In this document: positions 7,820 through 49,162 of the stretch, in pieces | How the letters are laid out: each line of letters begins with the position of its first letter | Numbering within the stretch: the stretch's first letter is position 1 | Assembly (NCBI RefSeq): GCF_019458805.1 | Contig: NZ_JAIBOA010000005.1 | Location: forward strand, 62,001-126,000 | Length of the DNA stretch: 64,000 nt | Direction of reading: 5' to 3' | Origin: Actinomadura parmotrematis | GTDB taxonomy: Bacteria > Actinomycetota > Actinomycetes > Streptosporangiales > Streptosporangiaceae | Made by a program: the position numbers and the translations under genes | The notes under the pieces: model-generated | Database searches by the model: none | What the model saw: only the letters and a program-made list of their open reading frames with translations | Told to the model about the DNA's origin: nothing

Positions 7820-10674
7820 CCGGGCGGTTCGGCGGTCCGCCGCCCGGCGACCGTGACCCGCGCCAAGTGGATCAGCGGACCCGAGTGGATCAGCGGGCCG
7901 ATGCCCGCAAGGGCGGCCGCGTCACCCAGGTCGCCGGCGACCAGTTTCTGGGTGGTCATCACGTCCACCATCATCTCCGGCTGGCGGCTGCGGCGCCGCG
8001 GGTGGTGTCGCTGCCGGCGGCTCCGCCGCACCTGGTGGGCCGCCAGGACCGTGTCGGGGAGCTGCTGGAGCTGCTGGCGCCCGGCCCTCCACCAGGTAGC
8101 GGGCCGGCCAGGCCGGCAGAAGCCGGTTCGGAGGTGGTCGTGACGGCGGTGCAGGGGCCGGGGGGCATCGGCAAGACCGCACTGGCGTTGGAGGCCGCGC
8201 ATCAGGCCGTCGAGCAGGGCTGGTTCGGCGGTGGTGCGCTGTTCGTGGACATGGCCGGGTACGATCCGGCCGGCCCGGTGTCGGCCGGGCAGGCGGTCGG
8301 GGTGCTGCTGCGCGCGCTCGGCGTCGCCGATGACCACCTGGCGGCGACGCCGGCTGAGCAGGTGGACCAGTATCGGGCCGAGCTGGCCCGCCGCGGGCAG
8401 GATGGGCAGCGGGTGCTGATCCTGGCCGACAGCGCCGCATCGGCGGACCAGGTCGCGGCGCTGGTGCCGGGCGGGCGGCAGCACCGGCTGCTGGTCACCT
8501 CCCGCGACACCCTGGCCGACCCCGCCCTGCCCGGGGCCCGCCTGATCGAGCTGGACGAACTCGCCGCGCCCGCCGCGGCCCAGCTGATCACCACGGCTCT
8601 GCGGCTGGCCCGCGGCGACGACCCGCGCCCGGCTGCCGACCCGCCGGCGGTCGACCGGCTGGCGGAGCTGTGCGGGCGGTTGCCGCTGGCGCTGGGGATC
8701 GTCGCCGCGATCCTGATCGGCGACCCCGGGCAACCGGTCGGCGTCCTGGTGGACCACCTGGCCGACGAACGCACCCGGCTGGACCGGGTACGCCTGCCCG
8801 GCAACGACGGCTCCACGGGGTCGGCGCCGGTCCGGGCGGCGTTCGCCCTGTCCCACCGGCGGTTGACCGCGCCCCAGCAGCAGATGTTCGCGCTGCTGGG
8901 CCTCAATCCCGGCCCGCACGTGAGCACCGAGGCCGCCGTCGCCCTCGCCGATCGGCCCGCCGATCACGTGCGGCCGCTGCTGGCCGCACTGGCCCGCGCG
9001 GGACTGCTGACCGAAGCCCCGGCCGGATCCGGCACCTGGCGGATGCACGATCTGATCAAGCTCTACGCCACCGAACTGCCCCTGCAGATCGGCGGCAGCG
9101 ACGCCGAGCACACCACCACTGCCGACGGTGACGACGACGGTGACGACGGCGGCCGCGACGCCGAGCCCGGCGGCACCGGCCCCCAGAAGCCCGCCGCGGT
9201 GCACAGGCTGCTACGGCACTACCTGAAGCTCGCCGATGCTGCCGACGATCATCTGCGCGCGCTGCCCGGCAGCCCCGTCCCCGACCGATTCACCGGCCGC
9301 CGAGATGCCCTGGCCTGGCTGGACGCCGAACGCCCCAACCTGATCGCCGCCGTCGCCCTGTGCACCACCGCCCACCCCGACCTCACCGCCCCTCTGGCCG
9401 GATGCTTGAACCGGTACCTGCACTGGCGCCGCCACTTCGACGACGCCCTCACCACCGGTCGGCACGCCCTCACCACCACACGCGAGTTGGGCGACCGGCA
9501 CGGCGAAGGGCAGGCGCTAGGCAACCTGGGGATCGCGCTGCGGGAGGTGCGGCGGTTCGATGAGGCGATCACCGCCCACACCGACGCCGCCGCCATCTGC
9601 CGCGAGCTCGGCGACCGGCACGGCGAAGGGCAGGCGCTGAACAACCTGGGGAACGCGCTGCGGGAGGTGCGGCGGTTCGATGGGGCGATCACCGCCCACA
9701 CCGACGCCGCCGCCATCTTCCGCGAGCTCGGCGACCGGCACGGCGAAGGGCAGGCGCTAGGCAACCTGGGGATCGCGCTGCGGGAGGTGCGGCGGTTCGA
9801 TGGGGCGATCACCGCCCACACCGACGCCGCCGCCATCTTCCGCGAGCTCGGCGACCGGCACGGCGAAGGGCAGGCGCTGAACAACCTGGGGATCGCGCTG
9901 AAGGAGGTGCGGCGGTTCGATGAGGCGATCACCGCCCACACCGACGCCGCCGCCATCTTCCGCGAGCTCGGCGACCGGCACGGCGAAGGGCAGGCGCTGA
10001 ACAACCTGGGCAACGCGCTGCGGGAGGTGCGGCGGTTCGATGGGGCGATCACCGCCCACACCGACGCCGCCGCCATCTTCCGCGAGCTCGGCGACCGGCA
10101 CGGCGAAGGGCAGGCGCTAGGCAACCTGGGGATCGCGCTGCGGGAGGTGCGGCGGTTCGATGGGGCGATCACCGCCCACACCGACGCCGCCGCCATCTGC
10201 CGCGAGCTCGGCGACCGGCACGGCGAAGGGCAGGCGCTGAACAACCTGGGGATCGCGCTGCGGGAGGTGCGGCGGTTCGATGAGGCGATCACCGCCCACA
10301 CTCAAGACCTGGACATCTGCCGCGAGCTCGGCGACCGGCACGGCGAAGGGCAGGCGCTGAACAACCTGGGGATCGCGCTGGAGGAGGTGCGGCGGTTCGA
10401 TGAGGCGATCACCGCCCACACCGACGCCGCCGCCATCTTCCGCGAGCTCGGCGACCGGCACGGCGAAGGGGCGGTGCTGAACAACCTGGGGATCGCGCTG
10501 CGGGAGGTGCGGCGGTTCGATGAGGCGATCACCGCCCACACTCAAGACCTGGACATCTGCCGCGAGCTCGGCGACCGGCACGGCGAAAACATCGCGCTGA
10601 ACAATCTGCGCATAGCCAAGCGGTCCAAGCGACGTTCCTGGTGGCGTATCGCCTTCCAACAGCGTCGCCGCTAA
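7816..10674 (+). CDS. NB-ARC/TPR STAND protein (bacterial NLR-like receptor)
   Basis: A 952-residue protein with a GTG start coupled to the upstream gene. N-terminus (about 24-53): the shared VTQVAGDQ motif followed by GGHHVHHH, like the actinobacterial RHIM-like (PP) amyloid motif. NB-ARC: P-loop GPGGIGKT (114-121), Walker-B-like RVLILAD (about 199), LLVTSRD (about 225), GRLPLALG (about 289) and the MHD motif as MHDL (410-413). A TPR region of 40-residue units runs from about 556 to 930. STAND ATPases bind a ligand through the repeats, then oligomerise; a short N-terminal motif can template an effector with the same motif. There is no SARP or kinase domain, so this is probably not an AfsR-type regulator. 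Placement between two transposons suggests horizontal transfer. Anti-phage function is inference. Confidence 0.88.
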   Translation: MTGRFGGPPPGDRDPRQVDQRTRVDQRADARKGGRVTQVAGDQFLGGHHVHHHLRLAAAAPRVVSLPAAPPHLVGRQDRVGELLELLAPGPPPGSGPARPAEAGSEVVVTAVQGPGGIGKTALALEAAHQAVEQGWFGGGALFVDMAGYDPAGPVSAGQAVGVLLRALGVADDHLAATPAEQVDQYRAELARRGQDGQRVLILADSAASADQVAALVPGGRQHRLLVTSRDTLADPALPGARLIELDELAAPAAAQLITTALRLARGDDPRPAADPPAVDRLAELCGRLPLALGIVAAILIGDPGQPVGVLVDHLADERTRLDRVRLPGNDGSTGSAPVRAAFALSHRRLTAPQQQMFALLGLNPGPHVSTEAAVALADRPADHVRPLLAALARAGLLTEAPAGSGTWRMHDLIKLYATELPLQIGGSDAEHTTTADGDDDGDDGGRDAEPGGTGPQKPAAVHRLLRHYLKLADAADDHLRALPGSPVPDRFTGRRDALAWLDAERPNLIAAVALCTTAHPDLTAPLAGCLNRYLHWRRHFDDALTTGRHALTTTRELGDRHGEGQALGNLGIALREVRRFDEAITAHTDAAAICRELGDRHGEGQALNNLGNALREVRRFDGAITAHTDAAAIFRELGDRHGEGQALGNLGIALREVRRFDGAITAHTDAAAIFRELGDRHGEGQALNNLGIALKEVRRFDEAITAHTDAAAIFRELGDRHGEGQALNNLGNALREVRRFDGAITAHTDAAAIFRELGDRHGEGQALGNLGIALREVRRFDGAITAHTDAAAICRELGDRHGEGQALNNLGIALREVRRFDEAITAHTQDLDICRELGDRHGEGQALNNLGIALEEVRRFDEAITAHTDAAAIFRELGDRHGEGAVLNNLGIALREVRRFDEAITAHTQDLDICRELGDRHGENIALNNLRIAKRSKRRSWWRIAFQQRRR
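9481..10600 (+). repeat. near-identical 120-bp tandem repeats encoding TPRs
   Basis: Nine full units begin at 9481, 9601, 9721, 9841, 9961, 10081, 10201, 10321 and 10441, with a partial tenth at 10561. Each encodes about 40 residues of the form ELGDRHGEGQAL / NNLGIALREVRRFDEAITAH. Differences are confined to a few codons: G/N after QAL, I/N in LG-x-AL, R/K/E before EV, E/G in FDxAI, DAAAI/QDLDI, and C/F. The combinations are shuffled among units, as expected from duplication and gene conversion. The last unit degenerates into a basic tail. Confidence 0.97.
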
Positions 10675-29804: not shown

Positions 29805-30128
29805 TCAGTCGGAGGCGGGCAGCGGCTTGGCCGCCTTGACGGTCAGGGGGACGCCGTCGCTGGTGAGCTCGCCCGCCCCGGAGGCGGTACAGAGCAGTTC
29901 GAGCGTCCCGGCGCCGTCCACGTAGCGCTTGCCGATGAGCGTGGCGGCGCCCGCGTCCCCGTCCTGGCCGGGCGCGGGGCGCACGGCGGGGGCGGGGACC
30001 ATCGGGCTGCCGCCGCAGGCGATCTCCGGTGCGGTCCCGGCGGGGACGCGCACGACGACCACCCTGGTCGTGCAGACGGCGCTGGCGAGCTGGTCACCCG
30101 GCCGCGGTGTCGTTGCCGGTGGGGTCAT
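29805..30128 (-). CDS. small uncharacterised protein
   Basis: 107 residues with ASAVCTTRVVVVRVP, EIACGGSPMVP and GKRYVDGAGTLELLCT. The Cys-containing beta-rich pattern suggests a compact domain, and similar small proteins occur in acyl-CoA clusters, but I cannot name a function. It overlaps the upstream membrane-protein gene by 35 bp, so it is translationally linked. Confidence 0.6.
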   Translation of the reverse strand: MTPPATTPRPGDQLASAVCTTRVVVVRVPAGTAPEIACGGSPMVPAPAVRPAPGQDGDAGAATLIGKRYVDGAGTLELLCTASGAGELTSDGVPLTVKAAKPLPASD

Positions 30129-30513
30129 GGCCGGCGTCTCCTTCCCTGATGCGGTCGGCGAACTGGGCGAGGTCGTAGGAGCGGCGGGCCATCCAGAAGC
30201 GCAGGAACCCCGTCAGCGAGTAGCGCAGGAACAGCGCGGACCCGACGACGCTCGCGGTGACGCCGCCGAGGCCGAGCGCGAGGGCGTCGCGCTGCACGAG
30301 CGCGTCGCGGGTGCCGTGCGAGACCAGGTAGGCGGCGACCGCGAGGACCGGCCCGAGCGCCATGAGCGCCCCGCCGAGGCGGAGCCAGAGCGCCGACCGG
30401 GCGGCCGCCGGGTCGGGGATCTTCAGGTCGGCGAGCTCGCGGGCGAACCGCTCGGCGCGCGTCTCGGCGCGCGGCTCGGCGGCCCGCTCCGGCGCCGCGT
30501 CGGTCTGTGTCAT
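30094..30513 (-). CDS. small membrane protein
   Basis: 139 residues: an acidic/basic helix (about 15-35), then two membrane helices (LWLRLGGALMALGPVLAVAAYLV; ALALGLGGVTASVVGSALFL) and an amphipathic tail FLRFWMARRSYDLAQFADRI. The start overlaps the livF stop (ATGA), so it belongs to the transporter operon. Function unknown. Confidence 0.65.
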   Translation of the reverse strand: MTQTDAAPERAAEPRAETRAERFARELADLKIPDPAAARSALWLRLGGALMALGPVLAVAAYLVSHGTRDALVQRDALALGLGGVTASVVGSALFLRYSLTGFLRFWMARRSYDLAQFADRIREGDAGHDPTGNDTAAG

Positions 30514-35534: not shown

Positions 35535-36227
35535 ATGCGCCTGCCGCCCCTGCCCGACGACCAGTGGGACGACCGGGCGCGCGCCGCGCTCGCCGCCCTG
35601 CTCCCCGAAGGCCGCCGCGACGCCGCGTCCGCCGGCAACGCCCTGGCGACGCTCGTCCGCCACCCCGACCTCACCCGGGCCTTCCTGCCGTTCAACGCGC
35701 ACCTGCTGATGGGCACCACGCTGCCCTCGCGCCTGCGCGAGCTGGCGATCCTGCGCGTCGCGCACCGCCGCGCCTGCGCCTACGAGTGGGCGCACCACTC
35801 CCGGTATGCGCCCAAGACCGGGCTGACGGATGCCGAGATCGCCGCCGCCGGGAGCGGCCCCAGGAGCCACGCCGGGAACGGCACCGGGAGCGATGCCAGG
35901 AGCGATGCCGGCGGTGATGCCGGGAACGGCATCGGCAGCGATGCCGGCGGTCATTCCGGGAGCGGCACCGTCGTCGACGGCGGCAGCGGCGGCAGCGGCG
36001 ACGGTGACGGCGGCGAGGCCGTCGCGCTGCCCGGCCTGGAGGGCGCCGTGCTGCGCGCCGTCGACGAACTCGATGGCGGCGCGGCCCTGTCGGACCGCAC
36101 GTGGGCCGAGCTGTCCGCCGAGCTGTCGGAGCGCCAGCTCATGGACCTGGTCTTCACGATCGGCGCCTACGGCCTGCTGGCGATGGCCTTCACCACCTTC
36201 GGCGTCGAGCCCGAGAACGAGAGGTAG
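35535..36227 (+). CDS. carboxymuconolactone decarboxylase-family protein with Gly/Ser/Asp-rich insert
   Basis: 230 residues. The CMD/AhpD-like core is HLLMGTTLPSRLRELAILRVA and CAYEWAHHSRYAPKTGLTDAEI (E84-x2-H87). It resumes after the insert with VLRAVDELDGGAALSDRTW and the end of the domain. Residues about 106-160 (35850-36017) are a repetitive Gly/Ser/Asp/Asn stretch absent from normal family members. The family includes gamma-carboxymuconolactone decarboxylase and peroxiredoxin-like AhpD; function here unassigned. RBS GAAGGAG lies 6 bp upstream. First gene of the operon to 41349. Confidence 0.85.
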   Translation: MRLPPLPDDQWDDRARAALAALLPEGRRDAASAGNALATLVRHPDLTRAFLPFNAHLLMGTTLPSRLRELAILRVAHRRACAYEWAHHSRYAPKTGLTDAEIAAAGSGPRSHAGNGTGSDARSDAGGDAGNGIGSDAGGHSGSGTVVDGGSGGSGDGDGGEAVALPGLEGAVLRAVDELDGGAALSDRTWAELSAELSERQLMDLVFTIGAYGLLAMAFTTFGVEPENER

Positions 36228-45678: not shown

Positions 45679-46461
45679 CTACTTCAGCTTCTCCTTCATC
45701 TCGTCGAGCTTGACGAGGATGGGGTAGCCGCTGACGCTGAGCGCGTTGCCGTGCCCGGTCTGGTGGATGTCGAAGACCGACTGGACGGCGGCGTGGAAGC
45801 CCTGCACGTCCAGGGTCTGGTTGACGGCGCGCTTGGCCTGGCGGAGCGCGAACGGCGGCATCTTGGCGATCTGCTCGGCGAGGTCGCGCGCCTCGGCGTC
45901 GAGCCGGTCGCGGGGCACGACGCGGTTCACCATGCCGGCCCGCTCGGCCTCCTCGGCGGTCACCGGGCGGCCGGTGAACAGGATCTCCTTGGCCTTGCGG
46001 GCGCCGAGCTCCCAGGTGTGGCCGTGGTACTCCACGCCGCCGATGCCCATGGTCGCGACCGGGTCGGAGAACAGCGCGTCCTCGGCCGCCACGATCAGGT
46101 CGCACGGCCAGCAGAGCATCAGGCCGCCCGCGATGCACCGGCCCTGCACCGCCGCGATCGACGGCTTCGGCACGTTGCGCCAGCGCAGCGTGTACTCCAG
46201 GTACCGGCGGCTCTCCGCACTGTAGATCCACTCCAGGGTGATGGCGTCGGGCGAGGGCCAGCGGTCCTTCAGGTCGTGCCCGGCGGAGAAGTGGCGGCCC
46301 TCGGCGCGCAGCACGATCACCGACACGTCGGCGTCGTCGGCCGCCCGCGTCCAGGCGGCGTCCAGCTCGTCGAGCAGCGCGGCGTTCTGGGCGTTGGCGA
46401 CCTCGGGCCGGTTCAGCGTGATCGTGGCGATCCGGTCGGCGGCCTCGTAGAGCACGTGCAC
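45679..46461 (-). CDS. enoyl-CoA hydratase family protein
   Basis: 260 residues. EGRHFSAGHDLKDRW supplies the first oxyanion loop and QGRCIAGGLMLCWPCDLIVAA the second; FTGRPVTAEEAERAGMVNRVV follows. The usual crotonase acidic pair is not obvious (SDPVATMGIGGVEYHGH), so hydration is uncertain. Operon with two dehydrogenase genes upstream (9-bp gap). Confidence 0.88.
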   Translation of the reverse strand: MHVLYEAADRIATITLNRPEVANAQNAALLDELDAAWTRAADDADVSVIVLRAEGRHFSAGHDLKDRWPSPDAITLEWIYSAESRRYLEYTLRWRNVPKPSIAAVQGRCIAGGLMLCWPCDLIVAAEDALFSDPVATMGIGGVEYHGHTWELGARKAKEILFTGRPVTAEEAERAGMVNRVVPRDRLDAEARDLAEQIAKMPPFALRQAKRAVNQTLDVQGFHAAVQSVFDIHQTGHGNALSVSGYPILVKLDEMKEKLK

Positions 46462-46470
46462 GGTGGCGCC

Positions 46471-47646
46471 TCACTTCCTGGGGAGTCCGAGCAGCCGCTC
46501 GGCGATGATCGTTCGCTGGATCTCGGAGGTGCCGCCCGCGATGGTGCCGGCGAAGCTGCGCGCGTAGCGCTCGAACCAGCCGGCGGCGAACGCCTCCAGG
46601 TGCAGGTGGGCGTGCGGCGCGGTCGTCGCCGGGTGCGCGAGCGCGCCCGGCCCGGCCGCCTCCAGGGCGCGCTCGGAGGCGGCCTGCACCGCCTCGGAGC
46701 CGAGCAGCTTCAGCACCGACAGGGCCGCGACGTCCTGCTCGCCGCGGTCGGCGCGGGCGAGCGCCTCCGAGCCGAGCAGGCGGAGGGCCTGCGCGTCCAT
46801 GAGGAGGGTCGCGTAGGCGTCGCGGTCCAGCGGGGTGACCGGCCGGAAGTCCTCGGCCAGCTCCTCCAGCCGGGCCGCGAAGCTCAGCCAGAGGAGGGTG
46901 CGCTCGTGGCCGAGCGAGCCGGTCGCGACCCGCCAGCCGTCGTTCAGGTCGCCGAGGAGGTTGGCGGCGGGCACGCGGGCGTCCTCGAAGAACACCTCGT
47001 TGAAGTCCAGGTCGTCGGCGCCGGCGATGGAACCGAAGGGGCGGCGCGTGACGCCGGGGGTGGCGGTCGGGACGAGCAGGACGCTGATGCCCTTGTGCTT
47101 GGGTGCGTCGGGGTCGGTGCGGACGAAGGTGAGCAGGACGTCGGCGTCGTGGGCGCCGGAGGTCCAGACCTTCTGGCCGTTGACGACGAAGTGGTCGCCG
47201 TCCAGGACGGCGCGGGTGCGGAGGCCGGCGAGGTCCGAGCCGGCGCCGGGCTCGCTCATGCCGAGCGCGGCGGTGATCTCGGCGCGCAGGATCGGAACGG
47301 CCCAGCGGCGCTTCTGCTCCTCGGTGCCGAACGACAGCAGCGAGGCGGCGACGATGCCGAGGCCCTGCGGGTTGTAACTGTGGTAGATCCGGCGGCGGGC
47401 CAGCTCCTCCAGATGGACGTACTGCTGGAGGAGGGTGGCGTTGCGGCCGCCGTACTCGGGCGGGTTGCCGGGCAGCAGCCAGCCGGTGTCGAACAGCAGG
47501 CGCTGCCAGCGGCGCGCCCACTCGGGAACGTGGGCACTGGAGCGCGAGCGCTCGGCGGCCTCGGCGCCGTCCGGGGCGTGCTCGGCGAGGAAGGCGGCGA
47601 ACTCGGCGCGGAAGGACTCGACGTCGCCGTCAAAGGTGAGCCGCAT
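46471..47646 (-). CDS. acyl-CoA dehydrogenase (pair 2, larger subunit)
   Basis: 391 residues. Blocks: ALGMSEPGAGSDLAGLRTRA, VNGQKVWTSGAHDADVLL, FEDARVPAANLLGDLNDGW and IAGGTSEIQRTIIAERLLGL. The domain order is complete. The 17-bp overlap with the following (upstream) dehydrogenase indicates co-translation of a heteromeric enzyme. Confidence 0.92.
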   Translation of the reverse strand: MRLTFDGDVESFRAEFAAFLAEHAPDGAEAAERSRSSAHVPEWARRWQRLLFDTGWLLPGNPPEYGGRNATLLQQYVHLEELARRRIYHSYNPQGLGIVAASLLSFGTEEQKRRWAVPILRAEITAALGMSEPGAGSDLAGLRTRAVLDGDHFVVNGQKVWTSGAHDADVLLTFVRTDPDAPKHKGISVLLVPTATPGVTRRPFGSIAGADDLDFNEVFFEDARVPAANLLGDLNDGWRVATGSLGHERTLLWLSFAARLEELAEDFRPVTPLDRDAYATLLMDAQALRLLGSEALARADRGEQDVAALSVLKLLGSEAVQAASERALEAAGPGALAHPATTAPHAHLHLEAFAAGWFERYARSFAGTIAGGTSEIQRTIIAERLLGLPRK

Positions 47647-49015
47647 GCCGCTCCCCGCCGTCGGTGACCGGCGGACGTCCCGCCCCGGGACGCCCGCCGG
47701 CGAGAGGGTCGCCGGTGGGACGGCCGCCGGCGAGGTGCTCGGCGGCGAGGCGCGCGCGGTGCTCGGCCGCGCCGCCGAGCATCAGCTCGCCGGCCTTGGC
47801 CCGCTTCAACGCGAACTGCACGTCGTTCTCCCAGGTGAAGCCCATCGCGCCGAAGAGCTGCAGGCCGTTGCGGAACACCACGGACTGGCACTCGCCCGCC
47901 GCGGCCTTGGCCATCGTCGCGGCCGTGCCGCGGCGCGGGTCGCCGGCGGCGATCGTGAGCGCGGCGTAGTAGGCCAGCGCGCGGGCGCGCCGCACCGCGA
48001 CGTGCATGTCGGCGGCCTTGTGCTTGACGGCCTGGTAGGAGCCGATGGGAGCGCCGAACTGGTGGCGGGAACGGACGTGCTCCAGCGTCAGGTCGAGGAC
48101 GCGGCGACACGCCCCGACCATCGTCACGGCCATCCCCGTGAGAGCGAGGTCGCGAGCATAGGAAGAGCCCGCACTGACACCCCCGCCAATGCCCGCGCCG
48201 ATGCATACGTCAACACCCGCGCTGGTACCCGTACCGATGCCCGCGGCAGTGCGTACGTCTGCGGCGGTGCGTACGTCGGTGCCCCCACCGGTGCCTGTGA
48301 TGGTGCCTGCGTCGGTGCCTGCACTGAAGTTTGCGCCGGTGCGTACGTCGGCGCCCACGCTGGTACCGGCGCGGGAGTTCGCGTTGATGCCTGCGCTGGT
48401 GCGTGTGTCCGCGCGTTCGTCGGTGCGTTCGTCGGTCCGTTCGGCGGTGTCGGTGTCCGGACCGGTGTCGGCTCCGGTCGCGTCGGCGGTGGTGACGAGC
48501 ACGCCGTCGAAGGTGACCTCGGCGACGTGCAGGAGGGGGTCGAAGGCGGGGACGCGGGTGGCGGTGACCGCCTCGGCGGGGACGGTGAACACGCCCGCGC
48601 CGGTGACGACGGCGAGCCGGTCGGCGCGGTCGCCGTCCAGGACGTGGGGGGCGGTGCCGTCCAGCAGCCAGCCGCCGCCGTCGGGGCGGGCGGTGACGCC
48701 GTCGAGGACGGCGGCGCCGGCCACGCCGGGCCGGTGGTCGCCGGGCGCGAGCGGCGCGAACTGCGTCATCGTGGCGAGGTAGGGCGTCGGGTCGGCGGCG
48801 CGCCCGAGCTCCTCCAGCACGATCGCCAGCTCGACGGCCTCGCCCGGCGCGGTCAGCTCGGTCCAGCCGAGCCGGTTCCAGGCCCGCCAGAGGGGGCCGG
48901 GATCGGCCGCCTCGTCGGCGACGGCGCGCACGAGCGCGGGCGGGCACTCCTTGGCGACGGCGCGGCGCACCGAGTCCTGCCAGAGACGCTGGTCGGCGTC
49001 GAACTCGAACAGCAT
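47630..49015 (-). CDS. acyl-CoA dehydrogenase-like partner subunit (pair 2) with long low-complexity insert
   Basis: 461 residues from ATG 49015 (MLFEFDADQRLWQDSVRRAV, GGAGG upstream); the frame extends to 49120 but crosses the operator. The normal parts are residues 1-176 and 287-461 (RSRHQFGAPIGSYQAVKHKA, LQLFGAMGFTWENDVQFAL). Residues about 177-285 are a Thr/Ala/Gly/Asp-rich repeat stretch with units like ADVRTxA and GTxAG that falls where the middle and C-terminal domains join. The family usually has about 350 residues here, so the insert explains the excess. Confidence 0.88.
   Translation of the reverse strand: MLFEFDADQRLWQDSVRRAVAKECPPALVRAVADEAADPGPLWRAWNRLGWTELTAPGEAVELAIVLEELGRAADPTPYLATMTQFAPLAPGDHRPGVAGAAVLDGVTARPDGGGWLLDGTAPHVLDGDRADRLAVVTGAGVFTVPAEAVTATRVPAFDPLLHVAEVTFDGVLVTTADATGADTGPDTDTAERTDERTDERADTRTSAGINANSRAGTSVGADVRTGANFSAGTDAGTITGTGGGTDVRTAADVRTAAGIGTGTSAGVDVCIGAGIGGGVSAGSSYARDLALTGMAVTMVGACRRVLDLTLEHVRSRHQFGAPIGSYQAVKHKAADMHVAVRRARALAYYAALTIAAGDPRRGTAATMAKAAAGECQSVVFRNGLQLFGAMGFTWENDVQFALKRAKAGELMLGGAAEHRARLAAEHLAGGRPTGDPLAGGRPGAGRPPVTDGGERHAAHL
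48161..48487. repeat. low-complexity coding repeats inside the dehydrogenase
   Basis: Short units such as GTGCGTACGTC and GGTGCCTGCG recur imperfectly on the forward strand. They give repeated ADVRTGA/ADVRTAA-like residues in the protein. The tract is in frame and has no stop, about 109 codons. Confidence 0.8.
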
Positions 49016-49057
49016 CGGCCTCCTTCCGGAGCACGTCCTTCCGGTGCACAACAGCGT

Positions 49058-49072
49058 GAGAATATCATTCTC
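49058..49072. promoter_or_regulatory. GAGAAT-N3-ATTCTC operator (dehydrogenase / TetR divergent promoters)
   Basis: GAGAATATCATTCTC, a perfect copy, 43 bp upstream of the dehydrogenase start (49015, reverse) and 91 bp upstream of the TetR start (49163, forward). It supports autoregulation of TetR. Confidence 0.78.
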
Positions 49073-49162
49073 GTGAGATGAAAGTAAGAGTCTCGACATT
49101 GCGACCGGAAAGGGCGGCAAGACGCAGGCGGCCTCCCGGTACGGTGCAGTAATGTTCTACGT

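Follow-up and report, generated by a model that had tools for sequence, protein, structure and literature searches.

The window, a stretch of 64,000 nucleotides from Actinomadura parmotrematis, carries on its minus strand a gene (47630-49015, ATG at 49015 and stop at 47630) for a protein of 461 residues that is preceded by the Shine-Dalgarno-like sequence AAGGAGG just upstream of the start codon. The protein matches PF00441 (1.5e-24, 87.3 bits, cut-off 22.4) and PF02771 (8.2e-6, 26.6 bits, cut-off 22.9), and no match to the middle-domain model PF02770 was found in it at E 0.001. The product of the gene that follows (46471-47646) matches all three, PF00441, PF02771 and the middle-domain model. 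We read the two genes as encoding the small and the large subunit, respectively, of a heteromeric acyl-CoA dehydrogenase type that appears to form a subfamily of its own. The large-subunit gene starts directly behind the small-subunit gene in 71 of 80 homologous loci (the best 80 among the matches listed), which stem from named genomes of Actinocorallia, Amycolatopsis, Frankia, Nocardia, Mycobacterium and others. A frame on the opposite (plus) strand is open from 47435 to 49081 but lacks a coding GC pattern (0.84/0.62/0.77 by codon position), and a plus-strand gene was rejected on this basis.

Within NCBIfam, the small subunit is best matched by two models, IpdE2 (NF050027) and PimD (TIGR03203), and the large subunit by PimC. 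However, the window protein stays far below the curated equivalog cut-offs (114.3 versus 450 bits for IpdE2, 94.6 versus 652.7 bits for PimD), as does the large subunit for PimC (186.7 versus 623.85). A further difference is a long repeat tract in the window protein that is present in none of 91 homologues, 80 of them the best among the matches listed and 11 from the genus of the window. The features of the locus, and those of a second expanded gene discussed below, are collected in Table 1.

Table 1. Genes and repeat features in the window
Feature	Position	Strand	Characteristics
Degenerate in-frame tandem tract, 12-base period	48161-48487	-	109 codons, residues 177-285; about 100 codons beyond homologues
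18-base direct duplication within the tract	48243-48277	-	1.9 copies, 94% matches
12-base-unit run ERTD ERTD ERAD	48398-48449	-	4.3 copies, 77% matches
15-base repeat in the C-terminal extension of the dehydrogenase small subunit	47695-47749	-	3.7 copies, 72% matches (TRF)
Large-subunit CDS with middle domain	46471-47646	-	391 aa; 17-base overlap with the small-subunit CDS
Enoyl-CoA hydratase CDS, next gene downstream of the large subunit	45679-46461	-	NF006140, 389.7 bits, cut-off 280
Carboxymuconolactone-decarboxylase-family CDS with second expanded loop	35535-36227	+	PF02627, 4.2e-10; frame chosen by GC3
Second 12-base-periodic in-frame tract, loop core	35846-35969	+	lag-12 identity 0.61, lag-24 identity 0.66

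The initial annotation had pointed out a 109-residue in-frame tract, and the segment in question indeed comprises exactly 109 in-frame codons on the minus strand within the 461-residue frame. Between the anchors FDPLLH and ALTGMAV the window protein has 133 residues, versus 22-37 in all of the 91 homologues aligned, i.e. the 80 named-genome loci ranking best among the matches listed and the 11 best matches from the genus of the window. In 77 of these 91 sequences the distance between the anchors is exactly 33 residues; the shortest loops of the set (22-27 residues) belong to the 11 proteins from the genus. Since four genus proteins compared are just 63-65% identical to the window small subunit and two proteins from Actinocorallia populi reach 77 and 76%, the 11 may represent a related type rather than direct orthologues. 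When 341 family genomes were searched with the whole protein and four candidates were scored per genome, 13 matched at E <= 1e-60, the window's own included. Four loci, all from one other genus (g4), align in two segments, the alignment jumping from query residue 179-183 to 281-286. Relatives with a tract of partial or intermediate length were found neither among the 91 homologues (the 80 best among the matches listed plus the 11 from the genus) nor in the 341 family genomes, and stepwise growth is therefore not seen. The statement that such tracts are unusual in metabolic enzymes thus holds for this enzyme, none of the 91 homologues, with the same 80 best among the matches listed, carrying one. 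No insertion is seen in the large subunit, whose alignment with the five loci compared spans 390-391 columns. Without its 100-residue insertion the small subunit would still measure 361 residues; the 29 homologues that make up alignment A2 together with it, taken from among the matches listed, have 328-337.

Structure prediction places the additional residues at a domain boundary. In the AlphaFold2 model of the window protein (mean pLDDT 57.8, pTM 0.44), the beta domain (residues 101-180) has block means of 81-97, the first 80 residues have 33-61, and the C-terminal helices, which start at residue 280, have block means of 55-73 up to residue 410. Residues 186-280 fall below 50, with blocks over 201-280 at 26-35. 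The predicted structure of a tract-free homologue from Actinocorallia populi (mean pLDDT 72.5, pTM 0.71) leads from a strand (164-175) via eight residues to a helix from 184. This model matches acyl-CoA dehydrogenases in the PDB, including 4x28_C (query TM 0.79) and 6wy8 (0.78); the window protein's own model finds the same entries at E about 1e-11 with TM 0.35-0.40 and an rmsd of about 11, the TM being low because most of the model is of low confidence. Taken together, the two models locate the insertion at the junction of the beta domain with the C-terminal helices, and neither gives a sign that it folds. The inserted loop is probably exposed and is predicted to be disordered. The initial annotation was correct in placing the tract before the C-terminal helical domain, as borne out by the domain matches and the AlphaFold2 model, and its proposal of a flexible spacer agrees with the predicted low confidence of residues 186-280. 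In the comparison of folds with and without the tract that it suggested, the tract-free partner is a natural homologue and not an edited protein.

The tract has the composition G22 A19 T19 D12 R8 S8 V7 I5 and is repetitive at the level of the DNA. Compared with itself, its DNA reaches an identity of 0.56 at lag 12 and of 0.53 at lag 24; all remaining lags below 24 give 0.19-0.44. Shuffling of its codons gives a lag-12 identity of 0.383 +/- 0.024 with a maximum of 0.476 in 5000 shuffles, and the periodicity is thus far beyond chance. The unit comprises 12 bases or four residues and is degenerate, residue identity at lag 4 being just 0.31, and because of this degeneracy Tandem Repeats Finder reports just three short pieces with scores of 51-63. 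The initial annotation had described units of the type ADVRTxA/GTxAG; the ADVRTxA pair reflects one local 18-base duplication (48243-48277), and DVRT is present at one further site of the tract. This duplication is probably one of the tract's younger events. Lag-12 identity amounts to 0.54 for first, 0.53 for second and 0.60 for third codon positions; third positions are thus copied no less faithfully than the other two, which argues for repetition at the DNA level. Each of the eight strong self-matches within the tract has a lag divisible by 6 (12, 18, 36, 72, 84, 90, 138 and 156). The GC content by codon position is flattened to 0.66/0.72/0.74 in the tract compared with 0.79/0.55/0.95 in the rest of the gene, and GC3 is 0.99 and 0.92 in the two flanks. 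RNA structure in the tract is not significant (z -1.54, 5 of 100 shuffles folding equally well). We also considered a dispersed element. At E <= 0.001 the tract DNA finds only itself in its own genome (40 of 103 candidates scored), and it has no match in a plasmid collection searched by BLAST with the low-complexity filter on, leaving this idea unsupported.

Compared unit to unit, the tract has a pN/pS of 0.93 for units 12 bases apart and 1.11 for units 24 bases apart; a phase shift divides it into two parts, for which the values are 1.36 and 0.64. Units with shuffled codons likewise yield about 1 (1.06 +/- 0.08) and dS is about 0.7, so that pN/pS is weak at separating weak selection from none. 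Repetition at the DNA level, the pN/pS of the units and lags in multiples of 6 make up the pattern expected from in-frame duplication followed by near-neutral divergence. The tract is therefore probably a tolerated, near-neutral expansion of an exposed loop by tandem duplication. A unit of roughly 12 bases would have been duplicated in frame, presumably by replication slippage or unequal recombination, and the small subunit's loop between beta domain and C-terminal helices would have gained about 100 residues in this way. The copies would then have diverged by point mutation under little or no selection on the encoded amino acids, with selection keeping the frame open and the surrounding enzyme intact. 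The result would be an enzyme with a long Gly/Ala/Thr/Asp-rich loop, which is presumably expressed at full length and whose fold probably tolerates the addition.

A second expanded loop resides 12 kb away in the window, in the gene for a carboxymuconolactone-decarboxylase-family protein. The loop comprises 84 residues versus 25-33 in all of 29 homologous loci from the genus; the six closest homologues have 30 residues each, 54 fewer than the window protein. Matches to both proteins share a contig in nine genus genomes: in six of them (G006, G016, G022, G037, G057 and G062) the two genes lie within 3 kb of each other and in three (G015, G039 and G046) they are 24-31 kb apart. As the homologues are neighbours elsewhere, the dehydrogenase and the decarboxylase-family protein may serve one pathway. 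The initial annotation had mentioned neither this second expanded gene nor the 12-base DNA period nor the period-12 tracts elsewhere in this and related genomes. Two more repeats occur in the window, a short 12-base repeat of 4.7 copies with 73% matches at 30448-30503, the start of a predicted minus-strand gene (30094-30513), and a 120-base unit at 9481-10587 on the plus strand (9.2 copies, 93% matches), whose 40-residue units may be TPR-like and which suggests recent expansion or homogenisation.

We surveyed period-12 tracts in a sample of 1.64 Mb from the genome at a threshold of 0.22. Sampling was uneven, with contig C16 covered completely, C45 almost completely and others in part. The sample contains 14 period-12 peaks, and three control copies whose triplets had been shuffled inside blocks of 300 bases contain 0, 0 and 0. 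Four genomes of the genus gave five peaks in 0.80 Mb; with the threshold raised to 0.25, six peaks in 0.86 Mb of the window's genome stand against two in 0.80 Mb of the genus. Of the 80 homologous loci (the best 80 among the matches listed; 0.55 Mb), three have a period-12 peak. Peaks are thus somewhat more frequent than in relatives, but with sampling this uneven we do not claim a genome-specific enrichment. By eye, many of the 14 peaks reside in tails or linkers. One of them (L253:6870-7046) resembles a histone-like lysine-alanine tail that may well be functional. The top period-12 score of the sample (0.41) belongs to a TPDA-type tract in an open frame of 604 residues (L267:6892-7163), and a dehydratase-domain protein (PF13452; L046:18864-19393) features a long N-terminal low-complexity region with four copies of a unit like APANALTVAPPDGPVGGSAG.

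Could the tract instead be a disordered segment under selection, serving as a tether, a solubility bristle or a docking site and conferring a new property on the dehydrogenase and likewise on the decarboxylase-family protein? Two genes 12 kb apart with like G/A/T/S/D-rich tracts, both at loop positions, and the presence of their homologues on one contig in nine genus genomes would fit, as would the fact that the reading frame has been kept, though the latter is weakly shown as a frame free of stops through the tract is expected at 15% from base composition alone. On the other hand, purifying selection on the encoded units was not detected by pN/pS, a measure of low power here, and the tract lacks the codon-position GC bias. 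A tract occurs in 0 of the 91 dehydrogenase homologues (80 of them the best among the matches listed) and in 0 of the 29 decarboxylase-family homologues, neighbouring pairs included, and two tracts in 64 kb do not greatly exceed the 0.5 that a rate of 14 peaks per 1.64 Mb would predict. We therefore regard a selected segment as unlikely. A more far-reaching variant, in which both loops have been co-opted as low-complexity tethers that gather enzymes of one pathway, so that a mutational process would seed enzyme clustering in this lineage, strikes us as very unlikely.

The initial annotation had alternatively viewed the tract as a sign of relaxed selection. Such relaxation is consistent with the tract itself (unit pN/pS 0.93 and 1.11, flattened codon-position GC) but does not extend to the whole gene. 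The flanks have pN/pS values of 0.34, 0.35 and 0.32 against three homologues (L052, L053 and L054, respectively). Alignment A2, which combines the window protein with 29 of the 80 named homologues (the best 80 among the matches listed), has 96 columns invariant in these 29 homologues (among the matches listed), and the window protein keeps all 96. A gene that is decaying as a whole, with the tract as a symptom, would be in keeping with the repeat-bearing C-terminal extension, with a second copy of the family in the genome (C16:51461-51883, 67% identical over query residues 289-429) and with the retention of 170 of the 178 columns of at least 90% conservation, the seventh lowest fraction of the 30 sequences in A2 (homologues among the matches listed). 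Against this stand the low flank pN/pS of 0.32-0.35 and the high flank GC3 of 0.99 and 0.92, the open frame, the Shine-Dalgarno-like sequence and the overlap with the large-subunit gene. Because all 96 invariant residues are kept, the dehydrogenase small-subunit gene does not look decayed, and we consider decay highly improbable. An artefact of assembly or sequencing is just as improbable: the genome is a draft of 60 contigs and repeats misassemble easily, but the degenerate units can mostly be told apart and no break interrupts the frame, which makes a false expansion unlikely, even if the 18-base copies could be miscounted by a unit or two.

Returning to tandem duplication as the probable origin of the tract, the repair equipment of the organism deserves a comment. 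A review (PMC8228993) describes NucS as unable to correct indels and polymerase proofreading as the proposed means by which almost all short indels are removed. NucS was found in the genome, and the MutS N-terminal domain had no match there. Loops of 12 bases exceed the usual size range of mismatch repair. Given this and the proposed role of proofreading, we treat the repair genes as background and not as proof.

Among the closest parallels known to us are tandem repeats within open reading frames (aaTRs) of Borgs, archaeal elements, which are described (PMC9879509) as perfect or nearly so, recent, A-rich and pervasive. Like the tract, with its period of 12, they have unit lengths divisible by three and lie inside an ORF, they introduce a new disordered region with disorder-promoting residues (disorder being predicted here from pLDDT), and they are almost never present in homologues elsewhere. 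In contrast to these perfect or near-perfect repeats, the tract is degenerate and GC-rich (lag-4 residue identity 0.31), and the protein that carries it is a predicted metabolic enzyme encoded on a bacterial contig. According to a study by Persi, Wolf and Koonin (2016, PMC5120217), which also proposes a role for positive selection in repeat evolution, the copies of a repeat inside one protein diverge fast under strongly relaxed purifying selection. The copies in the tract would behave alike, although that study deals with highly periodic repeats of significant similarity identified by its own method and our tract was assessed by other measures. Structural variants in mycobacterial pe/ppe genes are mostly in frame (17 of 25; PMC12817950) and thus also represent mostly in-frame changes of coding length in a high-GC actinobacterium; pe/ppe is, however, a repeat-rich family, whereas the present case concerns the expanded loop of a conserved enzyme. 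A literature search of limited coverage returned no report of repeat-expanded loops in actinomycete enzymes. In-frame repeats that create disorder and relaxed selection between copies are thus known already, and what is added is an example inside a conserved metabolic enzyme.

The dehydrogenase presents a clean natural experiment in which a loop of nearly fixed length has taken up about 100 residues born from repeats and the rest of the gene looks constrained. For the acyl-CoA dehydrogenase fold, it marks a site where a large insertion may be tolerated, and it offers a test case for how new disordered protein arises from in-frame minisatellites in high-GC bacteria that lack MutS.
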